Shown in pieces: positions 1 to 55,062 of a stretch of 64,000 bases of DNA. The translations under genes were made by a program, and so were the position numbers. The notes below the pieces were generated by a model, which saw only the letters and a program-made list of their open reading frames with translations, ran no database searches and had not been told where the DNA came from. Position 1 is the stretch's first letter; every line of letters starts with the position of its first letter. Source of the DNA: Photobacterium sp. DA100 (lineage in GTDB: Bacteria; Pseudomonadota; Gammaproteobacteria; Enterobacterales; Vibrionaceae); NCBI RefSeq assembly GCF_029223585.1, contig NZ_CP119423.1, forward strand, positions 3,596,001 to 3,660,000. Reading direction: 5' to 3'.

Positions 1-211
1 TCTTGACGAAGGCTGCACTGAGCGTGATGACGTGAACTTCCTGAAACACACACTGGCGTTCTACAACGGTGACGACGCACCTCGTATCGAGTACAGCGAC
101 GTAACAATCACCAAGTCTCAGCCAAAAGCCCGTCTATACGGTGCAGCGGCAGAAGAAGCGGCAGCGAAAGAAGCAGCCGAAGCGGCAGCGAAGAAAGGGG
201 AGCAGGCGTAA
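1..211 (+). CDS. frdA: Fumarate reductase flavoprotein subunit, C-terminal end (partial)
   Basis: This is the last 69 codons of a gene that begins before the window. The flavoprotein subunit carries covalent FAD and reduces fumarate to succinate on the cytoplasmic face of the membrane during anaerobic respiration. Only the C-terminal helical region and an Ala/Glu/Lys-rich tail are visible, so no catalytic residue can be checked. The identification rests on the tail and on frdB, frdC and frdD following in the usual order. The stop codon overlaps the frdB start (TAATG, sharing one base), which suggests translational coupling. The tail, about 25 residues of mostly Ala, Glu and Lys after a YGAAAEE motif, resembles the charged end of E. 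coli FrdA. Confidence 0.9.
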
Positions 212-951
212 TGTCAGACAATCGCATCCAAAAAGTAGAAATTCTGCGTTATGACCCAGCGAAAGATGCAGAACCTTACTTCGAAATGTTCGAAGTACCG
301 TTTAACGAAACCATGTCTGTGCTTGATGCACTGGGTTACATCAAGGACAACCTAGACAAAGATCTGGCTTACCGCTGGTCTTGCCGTATGGCAATCTGTG
401 GTTCTTGCGGCATGATGGTCAACAAGGTGCCAAAACTGGCCTGTAAGACCTTCCTGCGTGACTACCCGAACGGCCTGAAAATCGAAGCACTGTCTAACTT
501 TGCTATCGAAAAAGACCTGATTGTTGACATGACGCCGTTCATCGAGCGCCTAGAAGCAATCAAGCCATACATCATTGGCAACGATCGCAAGCCAGAAGAC
601 GGTCCAAACAACCAGACGCCAGAGCAAATGGCGAAGTACAAGCAGTTTGCAGGTTGTATCAACTGTGGCCTATGCTACGCAGCATGTCCTCAGTTCGGTC
701 TGAACCCTGAGTTCATCGGCCCTGCAGCACTAACCCTAGCGCACCGCTACAACCTAGACAGCCGTGATAACGGCGCTGATGAGCGTATGAAGCTGATCAA
801 CGGTGAAAACGGTGCATGGGGCTGTACGTTTGTTGGTTACTGTTCTGAAGTTTGTCCGAAGAGCGTAGATCCAGCAGCAGCGGTTAACCAAGGCAAAGTG
901 GAATCTTCTAAAGATTTCGTTATCGCCATGATGAAACCTCAGGAGGCATAA
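211..951 (+). CDS. frdB: Fumarate reductase iron-sulfur subunit
   Basis: FrdB passes electrons from menaquinol at the membrane anchor to the FAD of FrdA. The 246-residue product has the full set of cluster ligands. The plant-type [2Fe-2S] site is formed by C58, C63, C66 and C78 (motif [11 protein letters not shown]). A ferredoxin-like half follows with C149, C152, C155 and C159 ([12 protein letters not shown]) and C205, C211 and C215, which fits one [4Fe-4S] and one [3Fe-4S] cluster. Length matches the family. The start overlaps the frdA stop by one base, and frdC begins two bases after the frdB stop, so the four genes form one operon. Confidence 0.97.
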
Positions 952-953
952 GG

Positions 954-1337
954 ATGAGCAATCGTAAACCTTACGTTCGCGAAATGAAGCGCACTTGGTG
1001 GAAGGATCATCCTTTCTACCGCTTCTACATGGTTCGTGAAGCAACTGTACTACCACTGATCTTCTTCACTATCTGCCTGACTTTCGGTCTAGGTAGCCTA
1101 GTGAAAGGCCCTGAAGCATGGGCGGGCTGGCTTGAGTTCATGGCGAACCCAGTCGTTGTTATCCTGAACGTGCTGGCACTGTTGGGTAGCCTGTTCCACG
1201 CTCAGACTTTCTTCAGCATGATGCCTCAGGTTATGCCTATCAAACTGAAAGGCAAAACGCTGGACAAGAAAGTTGTTGTTCTATCTCAGTGGGCTGCGGT
1301 TGCTGCAATTTCACTGTTCGTACTAGTTCTAGTTTAA
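954..1337 (+). CDS. frdC: Fumarate reductase membrane anchor subunit C
   Basis: This is one of two small hydrophobic subunits that anchor FrdAB to the inner membrane and form the menaquinol site. The 127-residue protein has three predicted membrane helices (about residues 30-50, 63-85 and 105-127) and a conserved-looking [13 protein letters not shown] segment after the second. It starts with ATG two bases after frdB, with the ribosome binding site (AGGAGGCATAAGG) inside the end of frdB. FrdC/FrdD-type anchors, rather than a single cytochrome b, are typical of the enterobacterial and vibrio enzyme. Confidence 0.95.
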
Positions 1338-1347
1338 GGAGAGCCAC

Positions 1348-1710
1348 GTGGTTAATCTAAATCCTAAACGTTCTGACGAACCAGTATGGTGGGGTCTGTT
1401 CGGTGCTGGCGGTACTTGGTTTGCAATGCTAACACCTGTGACTGTACTGGTACTGGGTATCATGGTCCCACTAGGTATGCTAGACGCTGAAGCAATGAGC
1501 TACGAGCGCGTTTCTGGCTTCGTGACCAGTATCATCGGTGCTCTATTTACTATCGCGACCTTGGCTCTGCCAATGTGGCACGCGATGCACCGTCTGCACC
1601 ACGGTATGCATGACCTGAAATTCCACACTGGTGTGGCAGGTAAAGTAGCATGCTACGCAGCCGCATTCCTTGTATCTGCCCTAGCTGTTATTTTCGTCTT
1701 CATGATCTAA
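1348..1710 (+). CDS. frdD: Fumarate reductase membrane anchor subunit D
   Basis: This is the second membrane anchor of fumarate reductase. The 120-residue product opens with a [18 protein letters not shown] segment very like the E. coli FrdD N-terminus and has three hydrophobic helices. A histidine-rich loop ([14 protein letters not shown], about residues 75-88) precedes the last helix. The start codon is GTG, preceded by AAGGAGAGCC. It is the last gene of the frd operon, which ends in a strong terminator 20 bases downstream. Confidence 0.95.
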
Positions 1711-1730
1711 TCGTGATACGAAACGAAAAA

Positions 1731-1756
1731 AGCACCGCCTAGCGGTGCTTTTTTTA
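1731..1756. terminator. Bidirectional terminator between frdD and the SPFH gene
   Basis: A perfect 8-bp stem (AGCACCGC / GCGGTGCT) with a 3-base loop is followed by seven T on the plus strand and preceded by a run of A. It can therefore stop transcription from both convergent genes. Confidence 0.9.
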
Positions 1757-1769
1757 TACCTGCGGATTG

Positions 1770-3161
1770 CTACTCCTTGGCCTGGTTGGCCAGTTTCTCG
1801 TTCTGCTCCAAGATCCCCAAGGCACCAAAACCGGTGATCACATCGAGATTGGTCGTCATCTTGCCGCCCTCGCCGCCAAAGTAGTTCTTCGGCATCTCCA
1901 CTTGGAAGTTCTTCAGGTTATTGTACAAGGCAGTTGACACATCACGGTTCAACTCAGCCAGATAAACATCGCGGTTGGCACCATAGGCATCGTATTTGGC
2001 CTTGAGGATTTCCGCCTCAGCCCGCCCTTTGGCAAGAATGGCCTTGGCTTCATACTCAGCCGACAGGGCATTGGCTTTCTGGATTGCCAGGTTGGCCTCG
2101 GCAATCGCCAGCTCCTTTTCCTTATCGACTTCCGCCAGTCGCTTGTTCTTCTCGACCTCGACAATCTCACGCTCAGCGATCTGGCGTGCCACCTCGACCT
2201 CTTTCTGCTGGGCGATGATGGCCAGCTCCTTGTTGCGCTGGGCATCCTGCACTTCACGGGTGCGCTGGATTTCCTTGCGTAGCTGCTCGGTCTCCGCCTG
2301 GGCTTTCGAGGTTTCCTGCTCCTGGATAGCCCGGATGCGATCGGCTACCAGGCGCTTCTTGTCGGTCAGCAGCTTGTCCAGCTGCCCCTCGGGCTTGGGA
2401 TCACCGATAGTCACCTGGGTGACGGCGATACCGTACTGGCGCAGCGGATTGTCTTGCCGCTTCGGGTTGCCTTGTGCATCAAGCATCGGCACCGTCTTCC
2501 ATACCAGCTGCTGGGTGCGCTGGAGTTGGTTGGAGTTAGTCTGGTTGACCCCGACTGGTGCGAGATCGATCTGCTCCACCTCGACCTGGCGGCGCTCGGT
2601 CATGTAGATACCGTCACGCAGCTGATCGCCCAGCTTGGACTTGAACTGGTTCAAACCGCCCTGGAAGAACTCCTCACCGGTATACTGAGTGGCTGTTATC
2701 ACCGTGACGTTACGGGCGTTTTTCACCAGCAGGGCATCAATCAGGTTGCTGTTATTCCTGAACTCCCGGTGCATCTTGATAATCGACTCCGGATCTTGCG
2801 ACAACTTGAAGCGGAAAGTCACCGGGATTTCCCCGACATAGGTATCGGCAAAGCGTACTTGGATAGCCGGTAGGCGCTGGTAGAAGTCCTCGCCGGTGGT
2901 ATTGCCGTAGGAGACAGTGATCACCTGATCATACTTGGTGATTTTCGACAGGAACGGCATCCTAAAATGGATACCGGGCTGGTTGAATACATCCAGATCA
3001 CCGGTCAGGTTATTCTGATGTACGTAGGTATACCCTGCATCCGTCATAAGCACGGAATTATTGACCAGACCGAAGAGCGCTGCCGCGCCCAGGATCCCGC
3101 CGACAACGGGTAATGATACTTTGTTCTTGAGCGCTTGCTGCGCCTGGGGCTTAAAATCCAT
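1770..3161 (-). CDS. SPFH/Band 7 domain membrane protein of unknown role
   Basis: The 463-residue product has one N-terminal hydrophobic segment (about residues 16-36). An SPFH (stomatin/prohibitin/flotillin/HflK) fold follows, from about residue 40 to 260, with an early GIHFRMPF motif. Next comes a long charged coiled coil (about 265-400) rich in Glu, Lys, Ala and Gln. This is the architecture of proteins that oligomerise on the inner membrane and organise membrane microdomains or proteases. I do not recognise a specific named member, and no hflK or protease gene is adjacent. The start is supported by TTAGGGAAT just before the ATG. The gene is transcribed alone, convergent with frd and facing away from efp. 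Confidence 0.8.
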   Translation of the reverse strand: MDFKPQAQQALKNKVSLPVVGGILGAAALFGLVNNSVLMTDAGYTYVHQNNLTGDLDVFNQPGIHFRMPFLSKITKYDQVITVSYGNTTGEDFYQRLPAIQVRFADTYVGEIPVTFRFKLSQDPESIIKMHREFRNNSNLIDALLVKNARNVTVITATQYTGEEFFQGGLNQFKSKLGDQLRDGIYMTERRQVEVEQIDLAPVGVNQTNSNQLQRTQQLVWKTVPMLDAQGNPKRQDNPLRQYGIAVTQVTIGDPKPEGQLDKLLTDKKRLVADRIRAIQEQETSKAQAETEQLRKEIQRTREVQDAQRNKELAIIAQQKEVEVARQIAEREIVEVEKNKRLAEVDKEKELAIAEANLAIQKANALSAEYEAKAILAKGRAEAEILKAKYDAYGANRDVYLAELNRDVSTALYNNLKNFQVEMPKNYFGGEGGKMTTNLDVITGFGALGILEQNEKLANQAKE

Positions 3162-3311
3162 ATTCCCTAAACCAACGTTGTTATTATTCCATTGTATGAT
3201 TCAGGGTAATTAATAACAGATAGCAATAAAAGCAAAACATTGCCCCCATCATGCTAAATCCGGCACAGGTCAAAAAGTGTGACAAAATGAGTGAGAAGTG
3301 ATTGTTTAAAA

Positions 3312-3338
3312 ACAAAAAAGGCCGCCAATAGGCGACCT
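3312..3338 (-). terminator. Terminator of efp
   Basis: Read on the minus strand, an 8-bp stem (AGGTCGCC / GGCGGCCT, with one T-G pair) and a TATT loop lead into a run of T. It begins about 23 bases after the efp stop codon. Confidence 0.85.
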
Positions 3339-3360
3339 CTTTGTTACAACCGGAAGCGAA

Positions 3361-3927
3361 TTACTTCACACGGCCAACGTATTCAGCTGAACGGGTATCG
3401 ACCTTGATCACTTCACCGATAGCGATGAATAGAGGTACACGTACCACTGCGCCTGTTGATAGCGTTGCTGGCTTACCACCTGTACCCTGGGTATCGCCTT
3501 TCAGGCCTGGGTCTGTTTCAGTCACTTCAAGCTCTACGAAGTTCGGTGGAGTCACAGCGATTGGGTTGCCGTTCCAAAGTGTCAGCGTGCACGAGTCGTT
3601 TTCTACCAACCACTTCGCGTTGTCGCCTACCGCTTTCGCGTCTGCAGCGATCTGCTCGAACGTTTCGCTGTTCATGAAGTGGTAGAACTCACCGTCGTTG
3701 TATAGGTAATCAAGATCAGTATCGATTACGTCTGCAGCTTCAACGCTTTCACCAGACTTGAAAGTCTTCTCCAGTACCTTGCCTGAAAGCAGCTTACGGA
3801 TTTTAACGCGGTTGAACGCCTGGCCTTTGCCTGGCTTAACAAATTCGTTTTCGATAATGACACATGGTTCATTATCTAGCATAATTTTCATTCCGCCGCG
3901 GAATTCATTGGTGCTGAAAGACGCCAT
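3361..3927 (-). CDS. efp: Translation elongation factor P
   Basis: EF-P binds between the P and E sites of stalled ribosomes and promotes peptide bonds at polyproline stretches. The 188-residue product has the usual length and three beta-barrel domains. The conserved loop KPGKGQ places the modified lysine at K34, the residue that EpmA and EpmB beta-lysylate. The gene for EpmB is immediately upstream and divergent, 33 bases away, so substrate and modification enzyme share a promoter region. AGGAT sits upstream of the ATG. Confidence 0.97.
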
Positions 3928-7124: not shown

Positions 7125-7837
7125 CAATGGATAAAATGGACGAGTCCGTCGCAGAGGCAAATAACCGAGCGAGAACCTTTATCACACAACAAGGCGTCGC
7201 AGCCAATCAGAAGGTACAGCGTTCAGGCTTAAATACTGCTTTTTGGTGAGCAATTTGGCCACCTATATCTAAAACCTCCCACACCAATACTAAGACGCTG
7301 ATTTATAACAGATAAATAAGTGTTCAGCTTTTTCGGCTTTTTCCCTGACAAACTCAGTTCTGCTGGTTTAGCCATTTTCCGGCAGAAAGACGGGAAAAAG
7401 CCGCTTTTTCATGTACAGCTTTCAGTTGAAATAACAGCTAAAAACAGAGCAAGACCAGGCACCGGAAAAACCCGTCAAACAACACAGATAAGGCATTGAT
7501 ATAAAAAGACTTAATTAATGTGCAGCTTTTCTGGCTTTTTACCAGTTGAGCTTAGGCAGGATAATTGCTATGCCTTTTGGCATTAAACACTAACGCTCAA
7601 GTGGCCTCATCGCTTCCCCCTCCCCTCAGGCATGATGCGTTCAGCTTTTTCACCTTTAGGCACCAAAAAGCAGCACGCAATCAAGCCTATTCATCCAAGA
7701 CACCCCAAGCACCATTAAGTTGTTGATATAAAACAACATATGTTGCGTACAGCTTTCTGAGCTTTTTCCCTGGCAAGCTCATCATGGGAAAAATGCGTCC
7801 CTACAAGGTGATATTGCCTTTTCCCAGCTATAAAAAA
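7125..7837. other. Gene-free stretch between mgtC and the groEL terminator
   Basis: About 700 bases have no supported gene. The segment is dominated by copies of the same T-tract repeat family found upstream of rimK. No terminator clearly belonging to mgtC is visible. The only longer frame (from 7784) runs through the groEL terminator into the intron and is not a gene. Confidence 0.6.
7300..7780. repeat. T-tract repeat family, three good and two partial copies
   Basis: Good copies lie at about 7300-7353, 7496-7553 and 7722-7780, with partial cores near 7411 and 7638. The last two good copies share the left end TTGATATAAAA. All share a core CAGCTTT-N-GCTTTTT, and some continue as CCCTGGCAAGCTCA. 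The two T-tracts within each core lie about 9-10 bp apart, a spacing that favours DNA bending. Nothing similar in length was seen elsewhere in the window except a short resemblance near 34965. Confidence 0.6.
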
Positions 7838-7862
7838 ACGGAGGCTTTCGCCTCCGTTTTCA
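7838..7862 (-). terminator. Terminator of the groES-groEL operon, displaced by the intron
   Basis: Read on the minus strand, an 8-bp stem (ACGGAGGC / GCCTCCGT) with a 4-base loop leads into seven T (plus-strand A run at 7832-7838). It lies about 37 bases beyond the predicted 3' end of the group II intron. In the spliced transcript it would therefore sit at a normal distance from the groEL stop codon. Confidence 0.85.
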
Positions 7863-7937
7863 AATTTTACAGTTATCTCAGTGAGATAGGGGTTATGTCG
7901 GGTAGCAGCGACGCATTACTGCGCCACCGCCCCCTAA

Positions 7938-7971
7938 GAACCGTACGTGCGAGTTTCCCCGCATACGGCTC
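7938..7971 (-). ncRNA. Domain V of the groEL group II intron
   Basis: The 34-nt catalytic hairpin reads GAGCCGTATGCG, then GGGAAACTCGCAC, then GTACGGTTC on the minus strand. The helix, GAAA-type tetraloop and bulge fit the domain V consensus. Domain VI follows, ending at CGACAT. Confidence 0.9.
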
Positions 7972-7991
7972 AAGCCTTCATAAGCCTGCAC

Positions 7992-9668
7992 TTAAGTACA
8001 AGCCAGCAACGCACTATGTAATTGTCGATGACAATTAACGTGCAACACCATCAGGTTTTCATTTCTATCCGAGCCACCATCAACTCTGCGGATTATGTGG
8101 TGTACATCCCACTCTTCTTTCGAATTGAACTGCTGATGACATACAGCGCATTTGAAGTCTTGCCTTTCGACAAGTCTCCAGAGCTTCATGCTACCGACCA
8201 GAGACCTTTTCAGCCTCTGTACCTTCCGTTTCTCAAAATATTGTTCATCTTCAGGTAGATAACAGTTAGCTGTCGCCCGAATCTTCACATGTTTATCAAC
8301 TTTCACTTTTGCTGCACTTAGCAACCGATAGTGACCATCTTCCCCTATTGGCCGAGGAGCACTGAATACCCAGTTCCTATCACCTGCTTTCTTAAAGTAC
8401 TTACTTTTAATCCAGCGTTTACGGCGATTGAGGTGGATGCGCTTGCACCATTGCCAAAGCATTTTCCAAATTCTGTAGTCCACATACTTAAACGTCTCGC
8501 TAGCACATACCCAACGATGGTAATTACACCACCCTTTAATCATGGGATTCAGTTTGGCTATTACTGCTTTAGCCGGAACTGTTTTATGGCTGTTAAGGTA
8601 GTCACGTATGCTTTTCAGAAATACCTTCACGTTTCTTTTTGATGGCTTAATCAACATCTTGCCATCGTATTTACGCAAATTCTGTCCTAGAAAATCGAAC
8701 CCTTCATCAATGTGTGTAATTACAGTTTTCTCATTTGAAAGTTCCAGCCCTCGTTCGGCCATAAAGGCTTTCACAACAGGTAGAACGTCCTCTACCAGCA
8801 ACTCTTTAGAGATACCGGTAATAATGAAATCATCTGCGTAACGCACATAATTGACCTTGGTTTTATAGCTCGCTTTGGTGTTCTTCTTCCCGAAATGGGA
8901 TTCGAGCACCGCTTCCAAGCCATCCAACGCCATATTAGCCAGTACAGGAGAGATAATTCCTCCTTGTGGTGTACCAGCCTCTGTTGGATTTAACTTTCCA
9001 GACTGCATGAATCCAGATTTCAACCATTTCCTAAGTACAACCTTATCAATAGGAATGTTGGCAATAAGCCAATCATGGCTTATATGGTCGAAGCACCCTT
9101 TTATATCTCCCTCTAGCACCCACTGGGCGCTAGATTTTCGGCTGAGATTCACGAAGCATTGCTCGATAGCATCAGCGCATGAGCGATTAGGGCGAAAACC
9201 ATAACTATTACGATCCGCTGTTGTTTCCGATACAGGCTCAAGAGCTAACAAGTACAGAGCTTGCATTGCCCTATCAAGCATCGTCGGTATTCCTAACGGC
9301 CTTAGTTTGCCATTGGCTTTGGGTATATAGACTCTTTTGAGTGGTCTAGGCTTATAGCCTTTTCGCTCTAGTCTATCTATCGCGTTCCATTTGTCCTTTG
9401 GGTTACTCCATGTTTCTCCGTCAACTCCCGGGGTCGATTTACCACGGTTTTCAGTAACACGCCTTACGGCAAGTGCTTTGGCGGCAAATGATCGGGTTAA
9501 CATCCTTTGAAGCCGTTTGACCTTACGCCAATCAGACTTTTCCGTTGCTTTCGCGATTCGTACCTGTAGTCCTCTCACCGAACGGTGCATAAGCTCCCAG
9601 TTAATACTGTGCCATTGCTCCGCTTGATGGGAGGATGCAGATACTTTAACTTGCGCTAAAGTATGCAC
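7992..9668 (-). CDS. ltrA: Group II intron reverse transcriptase/maturase with HNH endonuclease
   Basis: This intron-encoded protein helps its intron splice and copies it into new DNA sites. I prefer the GTG start at 9668 because GGAGGAAAGCAAG precedes it; an ATG at 9689 gives seven extra residues but has no binding site. The 558-residue product has an N-terminal RT0 region, the fingers and palm (GVDGETW, IPKANGKLRPLGIP, SYGFRPNRS, GTPQGGIISPVLAN) and the catalytic YADD near residue 278. A maturase/thumb region (about 335-440, including PMIKGWCNYHRW) follows. The C-terminal HNH/zinc domain has a CAVC pair, a double histidine (DVHHI), an asparagine and a CHRQLH end. All expected motifs are intact, so the element may be mobile. 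It lies inside the intron, antisense to nothing. Confidence 0.92.
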   Translation of the reverse strand: MHTLAQVKVSASSHQAEQWHSINWELMHRSVRGLQVRIAKATEKSDWRKVKRLQRMLTRSFAAKALAVRRVTENRGKSTPGVDGETWSNPKDKWNAIDRLERKGYKPRPLKRVYIPKANGKLRPLGIPTMLDRAMQALYLLALEPVSETTADRNSYGFRPNRSCADAIEQCFVNLSRKSSAQWVLEGDIKGCFDHISHDWLIANIPIDKVVLRKWLKSGFMQSGKLNPTEAGTPQGGIISPVLANMALDGLEAVLESHFGKKNTKASYKTKVNYVRYADDFIITGISKELLVEDVLPVVKAFMAERGLELSNEKTVITHIDEGFDFLGQNLRKYDGKMLIKPSKRNVKVFLKSIRDYLNSHKTVPAKAVIAKLNPMIKGWCNYHRWVCASETFKYVDYRIWKMLWQWCKRIHLNRRKRWIKSKYFKKAGDRNWVFSAPRPIGEDGHYRLLSAAKVKVDKHVKIRATANCYLPEDEQYFEKRKVQRLKRSLVGSMKLWRLVERQDFKCAVCHQQFNSKEEWDVHHIIRRVDGGSDRNENLMVLHVNCHRQLHSALLACT

Positions 9669-10680
9669 CTTGCTTTCCTCCATAAACATCAGAAATGAAA
9701 CATCACAAGGTGCACTAAGCCCATAGGGCTTTGATTACCCTATGGTTTTCAATAACTCATACAACGTGAATTAAGAACTTACCTGCTTTCACGCGATTAA
9801 AGACCAAGCAGACGTCAGCACCGTTTCCGGTAGGAATACGTTGATTCCTTATCCAGCTCATTACAAGGTGGCGTTAGCTTTTTCTGCTCTCCTATTCCCA
9901 TACATCCAACAGCTCCCCTCACAGGTTACCTGCCTAAAAGGCGAAAATATGGGGTTTCCGAGTTCCGCTTTCATTACATAGGTTACTTAGGTTCTATCTA
10001 TCCACCGATGGCACAAATATCAGCGTATTCCCAGATGTAAGAGGAATAACTGGCCATACACCTTTTGGTCGAAGCGTTAGTCTCCAGTGCATTACCAAAG
10101 CACGTAGAGTCATCAATAGCCTTTCGCTCGTCGCGGCTGACGGTGTTTATCAATAGTTCACATACGTTAACCATATAACCTAGCCTAGCCCCTCTGCCGC
10201 CTGCTATTGGCCGCATTCCTGTCAGTTGCTTTACAGCACATGACAGCCACTGAAGTGGGGGTACATTGTCAGGAAGCTCCGCACACCGCGTTACCGCAGA
10301 TGCACTATCCCTAGGCTACTATTGGCTGAACAATAGGTCTTACTAACCCTTCGCTGTACCCGTCCGAGTTCAGTTAAGGCCAAGACAATAATGAAAACAG
10401 CTTTGCACCGAATAGGTGGCTCAAGCTTTTAAGACACGAATTTTCCCGTTACCTCACAACACCTAAGTGCTGCTTCAACGTATATCCGCAAAATGCAGGA
10501 TATAGGCTAAGACCTATACCGAATAATCAGACTCCCGTGAGGGAGACCGATATTCAGGCTTAAGCAAAGCCCGAATATCGGGTTTCAAAATGCTATTTCG
10601 GCGGGGGGTAGTAAGCACCATGTCAGTGCTTACTATGGACGTAGCCCGCTCGGCTAGCTACCTACGCGACTCTCGTCGCA

Positions 10681-12342
<1,662 letters not shown>

Positions 12343-54522: not shown

Positions 54523-55062
54523 GACTCGTCCTCCTGTCTACGCCGATCATGCTTGTCATTCTTCGTGGCCATGAGCGTCACTTGCGGTGTTGCCCATTGG
54601 TACGTAGAGATTTTGATCATCTTGCTATGACTCCACATGATTGAGTGTCTAGTGACTGCTTCTTGATATATTCAGTTCCGGCCTTCCCTTGGGTTGTACT
54701 TCCCCAAGGTACTATGCCTTCTGCTGACTTCTTATTTCCCATCACACAGCATCACTGCTGCATTAGTCTCGCCCGAGACAGGTAATAAGATCTCCCGAGG
54801 TAAGACGTTGTTCTTTCCCTTGGCTGTGCCTGATTTACCCGTACACACTTCCCGTCGAGGCATTGGGCTATTCTATATGTTGCTAGGTTACCCAAGTTGT
54901 ACTGGCCTACTATCAGATTTCTGTTCGTCACGGCCAAGTTTTGCCATTTGCTTCCTTCAGATCCCGCCTCACGGTGGGCACCCTTGCATAGGCTAACGGT
55001 TCTCGCTCGACTGAGCCCGTAGAGGACTTTCACCTCCTAGAACAACGCCATGCTCGGCGCAC

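Follow-up and report, generated by a model that had tools for sequence, protein, structure and literature searches.

The groEL gene of Photobacterium sp. DA100 lies on the minus strand of the 64,000-nt stretch of contig NZ_CP119423.1 that was analysed (the window), in an operon with an upstream ORF that we take from its sequence to be groES-like. A group II intron is inserted in its stop codon (Table 1). The 3' end of groEL reads GGT ATG ATG TA|GTGCGAC on the minus strand, and the intron opens with the G at 10681. The gene was matched in 52 of the 52 genomes of the window's genus. An earlier sequence-only reading of the window had the groEL frame ending in TAG with the G opening GTGCGAC, and this 5' junction is exact. 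The 3' exon begins at 7896 (minus strand) and contains, when read by eye, a terminator-like hairpin, which was not among the matches of a consensus scan. Further 3' of groEL, between 7240 and 7790 of the window, motifs like GTTCAGCTTTTTCGGCTTTTT were seen by eye to recur several times.

Table 1. The groEL stop codon and its group II intron, in window coordinates.
Feature	Position	Strand	Basis or remark
Presumed groES-like ORF, 96 aa	12369..12659	minus	groEL's operon, upstream of groEL
groEL, 548 aa	12327..10681	minus	ORF list and translation
IBS1 GATGTA, end of the last Met codon plus TA of the stop	10687..10682	minus	sequence
groEL stop codon TAG	10683..10681	minus	TA from the 5' exon, G from the intron
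Group II intron, 2785 nt, GTGCGAC...CCCGAC	10681..7897	minus	corrected boundaries
5'-terminal hairpin GCGAC-GAGA-GTCGC	10666..10679	minus	sequence
Domain I segment, RF02012 group-II-D1D4-7	10337-10189	minus	Rfam, 97.1 bits
EBS1 TACATC, domain I hairpin loop	10039..10034	minus	conserved-loop comparison
IEP, 565 aa: RT (YADD), maturase, HNH	9689..7992	minus	Pfam, NCBIfam
Domains V and VI, RF00029	7973-7897	minus	Rfam, 67 bits
Presumed branch-point A of DVI	7903	minus	fold of the 3' end
Terminator-like hairpin, then T's	7832..7857	minus	in the 3' exon, read by eye

The ends of the intron (GTGCG...AC) agree with the GUGYG start and AY end given as the group II consensus in PMC4424553. Both Rfam matches exceed the gathering score, and DV/DVI folds with a z of -5.5. 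The ORF of the encoded protein (IEP) contains RVT_N, RVT_1, GIIM and HNH, all above the Pfam cut-offs, and scores 385.5 against the NCBIfam group II RT/maturase cut-off of 300. Among related introns the IEP is under constraint, with a dN of 0.092 and a dS of 1.13 between L005 and L010. Judged by these features, the element is an apparently intact, probably mobile group II intron made up of a ribozyme and an RT/maturase/HNH protein. The genome holds a single copy of this IEP; 17 further RT matches are of a different type with a 442-aa frame. An intron of that other type (Rfam D1D4-3 and D1D4-1) is found in the window itself, at 54680-54978 on the minus strand.

The position of the 3' end had to be corrected. 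It had been read as CGACAT|AA at 7895, two bases off the true end, which is CCCGAC|AT at 7897; the GUGYG...AY consensus by itself is compatible with both. The RF00029 match stops at 7897, and folding of the 3' end puts the bulged A of DVI at the seventh base from the CCCGAC end. For comparison, 55 loci with an ATGATGT(A/G) junction were collected, whole-genome loci included, 50 of them TA|G and five TG|A; one of these, L028, has just a short groEL-like end in other surroundings. The 3' end was readable in 45 loci, including the window, and the last three intron bases are GAC in 42, GCC in two and GAT in one. In 44 of them an A follows, and in the tandem L026 a G. Since GAC followed by A predominates, the window intron is taken to end at 7897. 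The intron-free Photobacterium G137 reads ATGATG-TAATACCCCTATCTCACTGAGATAG, and the window with the intron removed reads ATGATG-TA|ATAACCCCTATCTCACTGAGATAA; GAC|AT alone restores the TAAT of the relatives, while a one-base indel persists against G137. The RF00029 end, the DVI fold, the 45 compared ends and the intron-free relative rule out the CGACAT|AA boundary. The spliced stop is TAA under either boundary, so the central point of the sequence-only reading is unaffected at the sequence level.

The reading had also expected intron-free relatives to show groEL joined to the downstream sequence. They do, but the join is 10682 to 7896, not to 7894. In P. marinum (L005 against the empty site of G076) the comparison, starting at the stop codon, shows identity at all 62 bases, and in P. 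angustum (L009 against G117) at 33. One mismatch in 30 was found between G007 and G052, and 19 identical bases between P. halotolerans L004 and G032. The identity runs for 14 bases between L169 and G155 and for five between the window and G137, in each case followed by a one-base indel.

Recognition of the site can be read from the exon- and intron-binding sequences. In the window EBS1 (TACATC) forms six Watson-Crick pairs with IBS1 (GATGTA), the last six bases of the exon. The loop TTACAT(C/T) was found in all 53 of the 53 introns checked, in 51 within the first 1000 nt and in L009 and L165 further in, two of the 55 loci (L167 and L185) having been excluded as truncated; in L012 the loop ends in T, not C. 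Another EBS1 candidate at intron positions 39-44 was displaced by this fully conserved loop, and one at 378-383 was dropped because it is located in a stem that varies between introns. A search for EBS2 and EBS3 identified neither, EBS2 giving many weak candidates. As a control, 15 outgroup introns inserted elsewhere were used, and six of them (L038, L039, L063, L067, L070, and L079) carry in a hairpin loop an exact complement of the last six bases of their own exon. Such a complement was absent in the other nine of the 15, and when introns and exons were mismatched it was found in 2 of 210 pairings. L023, an ectopic copy within an ORF read as a transposase, retains TACATC and fits its exon at five of six positions. 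In a Nevskia soli MAG the outgroup intron L038 is found directly 3' of ...GACATGTAA and has a matching TTACAT loop; this is a possible stop-codon insertion in another gene.

An intron at this site is known from Azotobacter. The title of Ferat, Le Gouar and Michel (2003) places it within the groEL termination codon, which is the report that the sequence-only reading had referred to, and the title of Adamidi, Fedorova and Pyle (2003) reports autocatalysis and thermostability. It has been named Avi.groEL or A.v.I1 (PMC8283771). According to PMC4465626, A. vinelandii has a type II intron close to the groEL 3' end, one of a subset that carries a large 5' insertion (Michel 2007 is cited for this), and in A. 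chroococcum the orthologous intron does not sit exactly at the termination codon. In the window intron 344 nt precede the D1D4-7 match, a length that would fit such an insertion. Bacterial introns are found mostly outside housekeeping genes, according to PMC4424553. Literature on groEL-stop introns outside Azotobacter, or on variants starting with A, was not recognised, a weak result as the key 2003 and 2007 papers were not covered; PMC8919778 does not mention groEL. As both the site and the stop-codon trick are already in print for Azotobacter, the window intron is a further member, with a marine Photobacterium as its host.

The same relationship is seen when the elements themselves are compared. 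The intron of the Azotobacter-like genome G992 has the start GTGCGACGAGAGTCGC, the end CCCGAC|A and the EBS1 TACATC in common with that of the window, while the IEPs are 67% and the intron DNAs 62.8% identical. The comparison with Azotobacter proposed earlier was made with Azotobacter-like introns, which share start, boundaries, EBS1 and clade with the window intron. In P. rosenbergii the intron (L001) occupies the same site and is 98.4% identical over 2783 aligned bases, although it is about 554 nt longer (3339 vs 2785). Enterobacterial plasmid introns with HNH-type IEPs belong to the same RT/maturase family; their top-ranked match is 60.7% identical to the window IEP, and the lowest value for a groEL-site IEP among the best 80 of 419 relatives is 63%. 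Of 1501 plasmid records, 28 are within a 60-80% IEP identity band. A plasmid vehicle was looked for among the best 40 plasmid matches listed, which include one of these 28, and nothing close was found.

A scan of GTDB species contigs gave 419 relatives of the IEP, of which the best 80 were kept. groEL is directly upstream in 31 of the 80, the last of which, L021, has a partial frame at the edge of the locus. IEP trees of 60 and 66 rows were made by a quick method with SH-aLRT as the only support, and in them the groEL-site introns fall into a single clade, of 50 rows in the first and 51 in the second, with an SH-aLRT of 99. In the 66-row tree the clade comprises 47 groEL-site rows and four (L018, L023, L028, and L031) that lie elsewhere than groEL or whose site could not be assigned, against 15 outgroup rows. 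A single IEP clade with a fixed EBS1 supports the dedicated insertion site suggested by the sequence-only reading. The hosts span about 11 gammaproteobacterial families, which by label are Vibrionaceae, Pseudoalteromonadaceae, Shewanellaceae, Colwelliaceae, Alteromonadaceae, Halomonadaceae, Oceanospirillaceae, Saccharospirillaceae, Spongiibacteraceae, and Alcanivoracaceae, together with f162, which was taken for Pseudomonadaceae from one marker. In f162 an IEP relative at E <= 1e-150 is present in 39 of 248 genomes, and the groEL-stop junction in five of the 20 loci read. The Azotobacter-like introns L209-L212 are found inside the groEL clade (SH-aLRT 99), the Azotobacter identity of G992 and G969 being inferred, and all 21 Vibrionaceae rows form one branch.

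The junction pattern occurs in 19 of 247 Vibrionaceae genomes, including 10 of 52 from the window's genus, and in 18 of 227 from the genus of G232, a count that overlaps that of the family. In families f205 and f188 it was found in 7 of 75 and 3 of 152 genomes, and in f192 in none of 24. Variants such as the Alcanivorax start are missed by these surveys because the pattern requires a near-canonical sequence. A class survey found the 18-nt pattern in 3 of 369 genomes, two of them lacking a recognisable intron, and an order survey found the pattern in 4 of 295, with G806 intron-free by eye.

Several loci have an unusual organization. In L184 (G913) and L026 a first intron ends in CCCGAC and a second starts immediately, with ATGCGAC and GTGCGAC, respectively; the stop-codon site has therefore been hit twice. 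In L183 (G906) the 5' RNA groups with the window intron and the IEP with that of Nitrincola, which suggests a mosaic intron. The intron of Marinomonas flavescens (L028, around 2876) follows a 17-nt groEL-like end, ATGGGCGGCATGATGTA, with groEL not upstream, and another copy of a similar groEL-like tail is found further up. In Halomonas socia (L021, 530-6145) the intron is 5615 nt, about 2.2-2.8 kb above most, with extra DNA before the IEP. L031, a short contig of a Lysobacterales MAG (1-3460), starts and ends with an intron 3' end and represents either tandem copies or an assembly artefact.

Two alternative accounts of the distribution fit poorly with the comparisons. Unrelated group II introns might have hit the groEL stop separately in Azotobacter and Vibrionaceae, an option that the sequence-only reading had left standing. 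Several other bacterial introns are located near start or stop codons, and the outgroup copy L038 sits after ...ATGTAA. Nevertheless, such convergence is scarcely credible, because the Azotobacter-like introns L209 and L211 have the same start, boundaries and EBS1, and with 67% IEP identity fall within the groEL clade. Purely vertical descent with many losses since an early gammaproteobacterial ancestor is somewhat less far-fetched, as the IEPs group partly by family, with the Vibrionaceae rows in one branch, but it too is very improbable. Presence is patchy, as the Vibrionaceae count shows, and across genera the introns are closer than the groEL genes. In Salinivibrio, V. mimicus, V. penaeicida, and P. 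halotolerans the introns are 88.5-91.8% identical and groEL 79.4-83.1%, and the introns L248 and L169 are 99.8% identical over 826 nt in hosts whose groEL genes are 88.1% identical over 1500 nt. Judged from such pairs, the groEL-stop intron has moved horizontally between bacteria in at least some cases, in line with the recurrent transfer that had been proposed, and recent movement from host to host implies that relatives of the window intron are mobile. The groEL of the window is 93.8% identical to that of P. rosenbergii, less than the introns are, while against P. marinum the intron is 74.6% and groEL 86.9% identical. Within Vibrionaceae many marine intron pairs likewise diverge more than their groEL, and recent transfer is therefore shown for some pairs only.

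We are highly confident of the mechanism as a whole, that of a dedicated, probably mobile groEL-stop intron spreading between species. The lineage would have a single target, the point between the second and third bases of the groEL stop codon, and its EBS1 loop would pair with GAUGUA both in RNA, during splicing, and in DNA, during retrohoming. In the unspliced mRNA the first G of the intron would complete TAG, and in the spliced mRNA the A of the 3' exon would complete TAA. On the sequence, groEL is predicted to end at TAG (or TGA) before and at TAA (or TGA) after splicing, at the same codon position as the sequence-only reading had it. Because GroEL would end identically in both forms, the essential gene should tolerate slow splicing or even a dead intron, and as nearly all relatives keep the same groEL end, the intron could pass from one species to another and enter each at that site. 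In this account splicing and retrohoming are predictions from the sequence, as is the translation of unspliced mRNA. In L167 only 297 nt of intron can be aligned (to L168), no DV motif was found across 4056 nt, and groEL still ends in TAG; the persistence of this truncated copy at the same stop fits tolerance in an essential gene. L172 and L183 have broken IEPs. These three copies are as would be expected if the unspliced message suffices, which is not the same as proof.

It might instead be that the intron regulates groEL, for instance by heat-dependent splicing that alters the 3' end of the message. The location in a heat-shock operon, the terminator-like hairpin seen by eye after the intron and the thermostability in the title of Adamidi et al. 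(2003) would fit this, but we consider it improbable, given that the occurrence is patchy, that sister species lack the intron and that both RNA forms give the same protein.

The dedicated intron also has a variant that starts with A. Among 39 surveyed genomes the bases at exon -1 and intron +1 are TA|G in 33, TG|A in five, TA|A in one, and TG|G in none. The surveys allowed A or G at both positions, chance matches being removed, and the pattern is able to see G but is blind to C or T at intron +1. In 38 of the 39 the alignment with reference introns continues beyond the junction; the exception, L103 (G074), aligns with L168. One TGA copy, L179/L185 (G922, GA), has no match to full introns at E 1e-3 and cannot be counted as a secure intron, resting on 15 first bases identical to L003 and L175 and a weak 30-nt match. 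TGA ends 5 of the 42 intron-free groEL genes in the window's genus. The association of the first base with TGA has a Fisher p of 1e-5, or 7e-5 when L185 is removed, both ignoring relatedness. In an RNA tree made without L185 and L167 four changes are required for the A start and four for the G at -1, and four of four independent contrasts agree but reach only p = 0.125. Insertion of a G-start intron in a TGA host would replace TG|A by TGG, so that ribosomes would run on into the intron, while with an A-start intron the unspliced TGA would still stop.

The A start occurs outside TGA hosts too, as L169 has a TGA host and its near-identical relative L248 a TAA host. This weakens the view of the A start purely as in-place compensation. 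The second intron of the tandem L184 is also an A-start intron, following a G-start one. The 3' end GAC is kept in L003, L005 and L169, so the penultimate intron base did not change with the first. A cut giving exon TGA| and an intron U...ACA would yield an identical spliced product and is indistinguishable by sequence; A is nevertheless preferred as the first base, since one substitution would suffice and the EBS1 register would be kept.

It is possible, though doubtful, that the A-start copies in TGA hosts are dead introns that could change their first base freely. The GUGYG consensus begins with G (PMC4424553), and L185 is a remnant. However, the IEPs of L003, L005 and L169 are still full length (561-569 aa), the dN between L003 and L005 is 0.078 at a dS of 1.06, and one A-start intron is present in two hosts (L169 and L248). 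Drift would in addition yield TG|G, TG|C and TG|T, of which the survey could see only the first. We lean slightly towards selection on the stop of the unspliced RNA shaping the first intron base, with the A-start introns being functional, mobile and recurrent, and fitting both TAA and TGA hosts. The few events, the one remnant and the one-base ambiguity of the cut make this reading weaker.

The A-start intron in TGA hosts is the newer result. If the reading is true, protection of the unspliced message would take precedence over the first base that group II introns almost universally share, and the A-start copies would be group II introns that function although they lack the canonical G at the start. 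What was a case from one genus is widened to one intron lineage at one site in many hosts, with alleles that are intact, tandem, truncated or empty, and this makes it possible to test how a selfish RNA persists in an essential gene.
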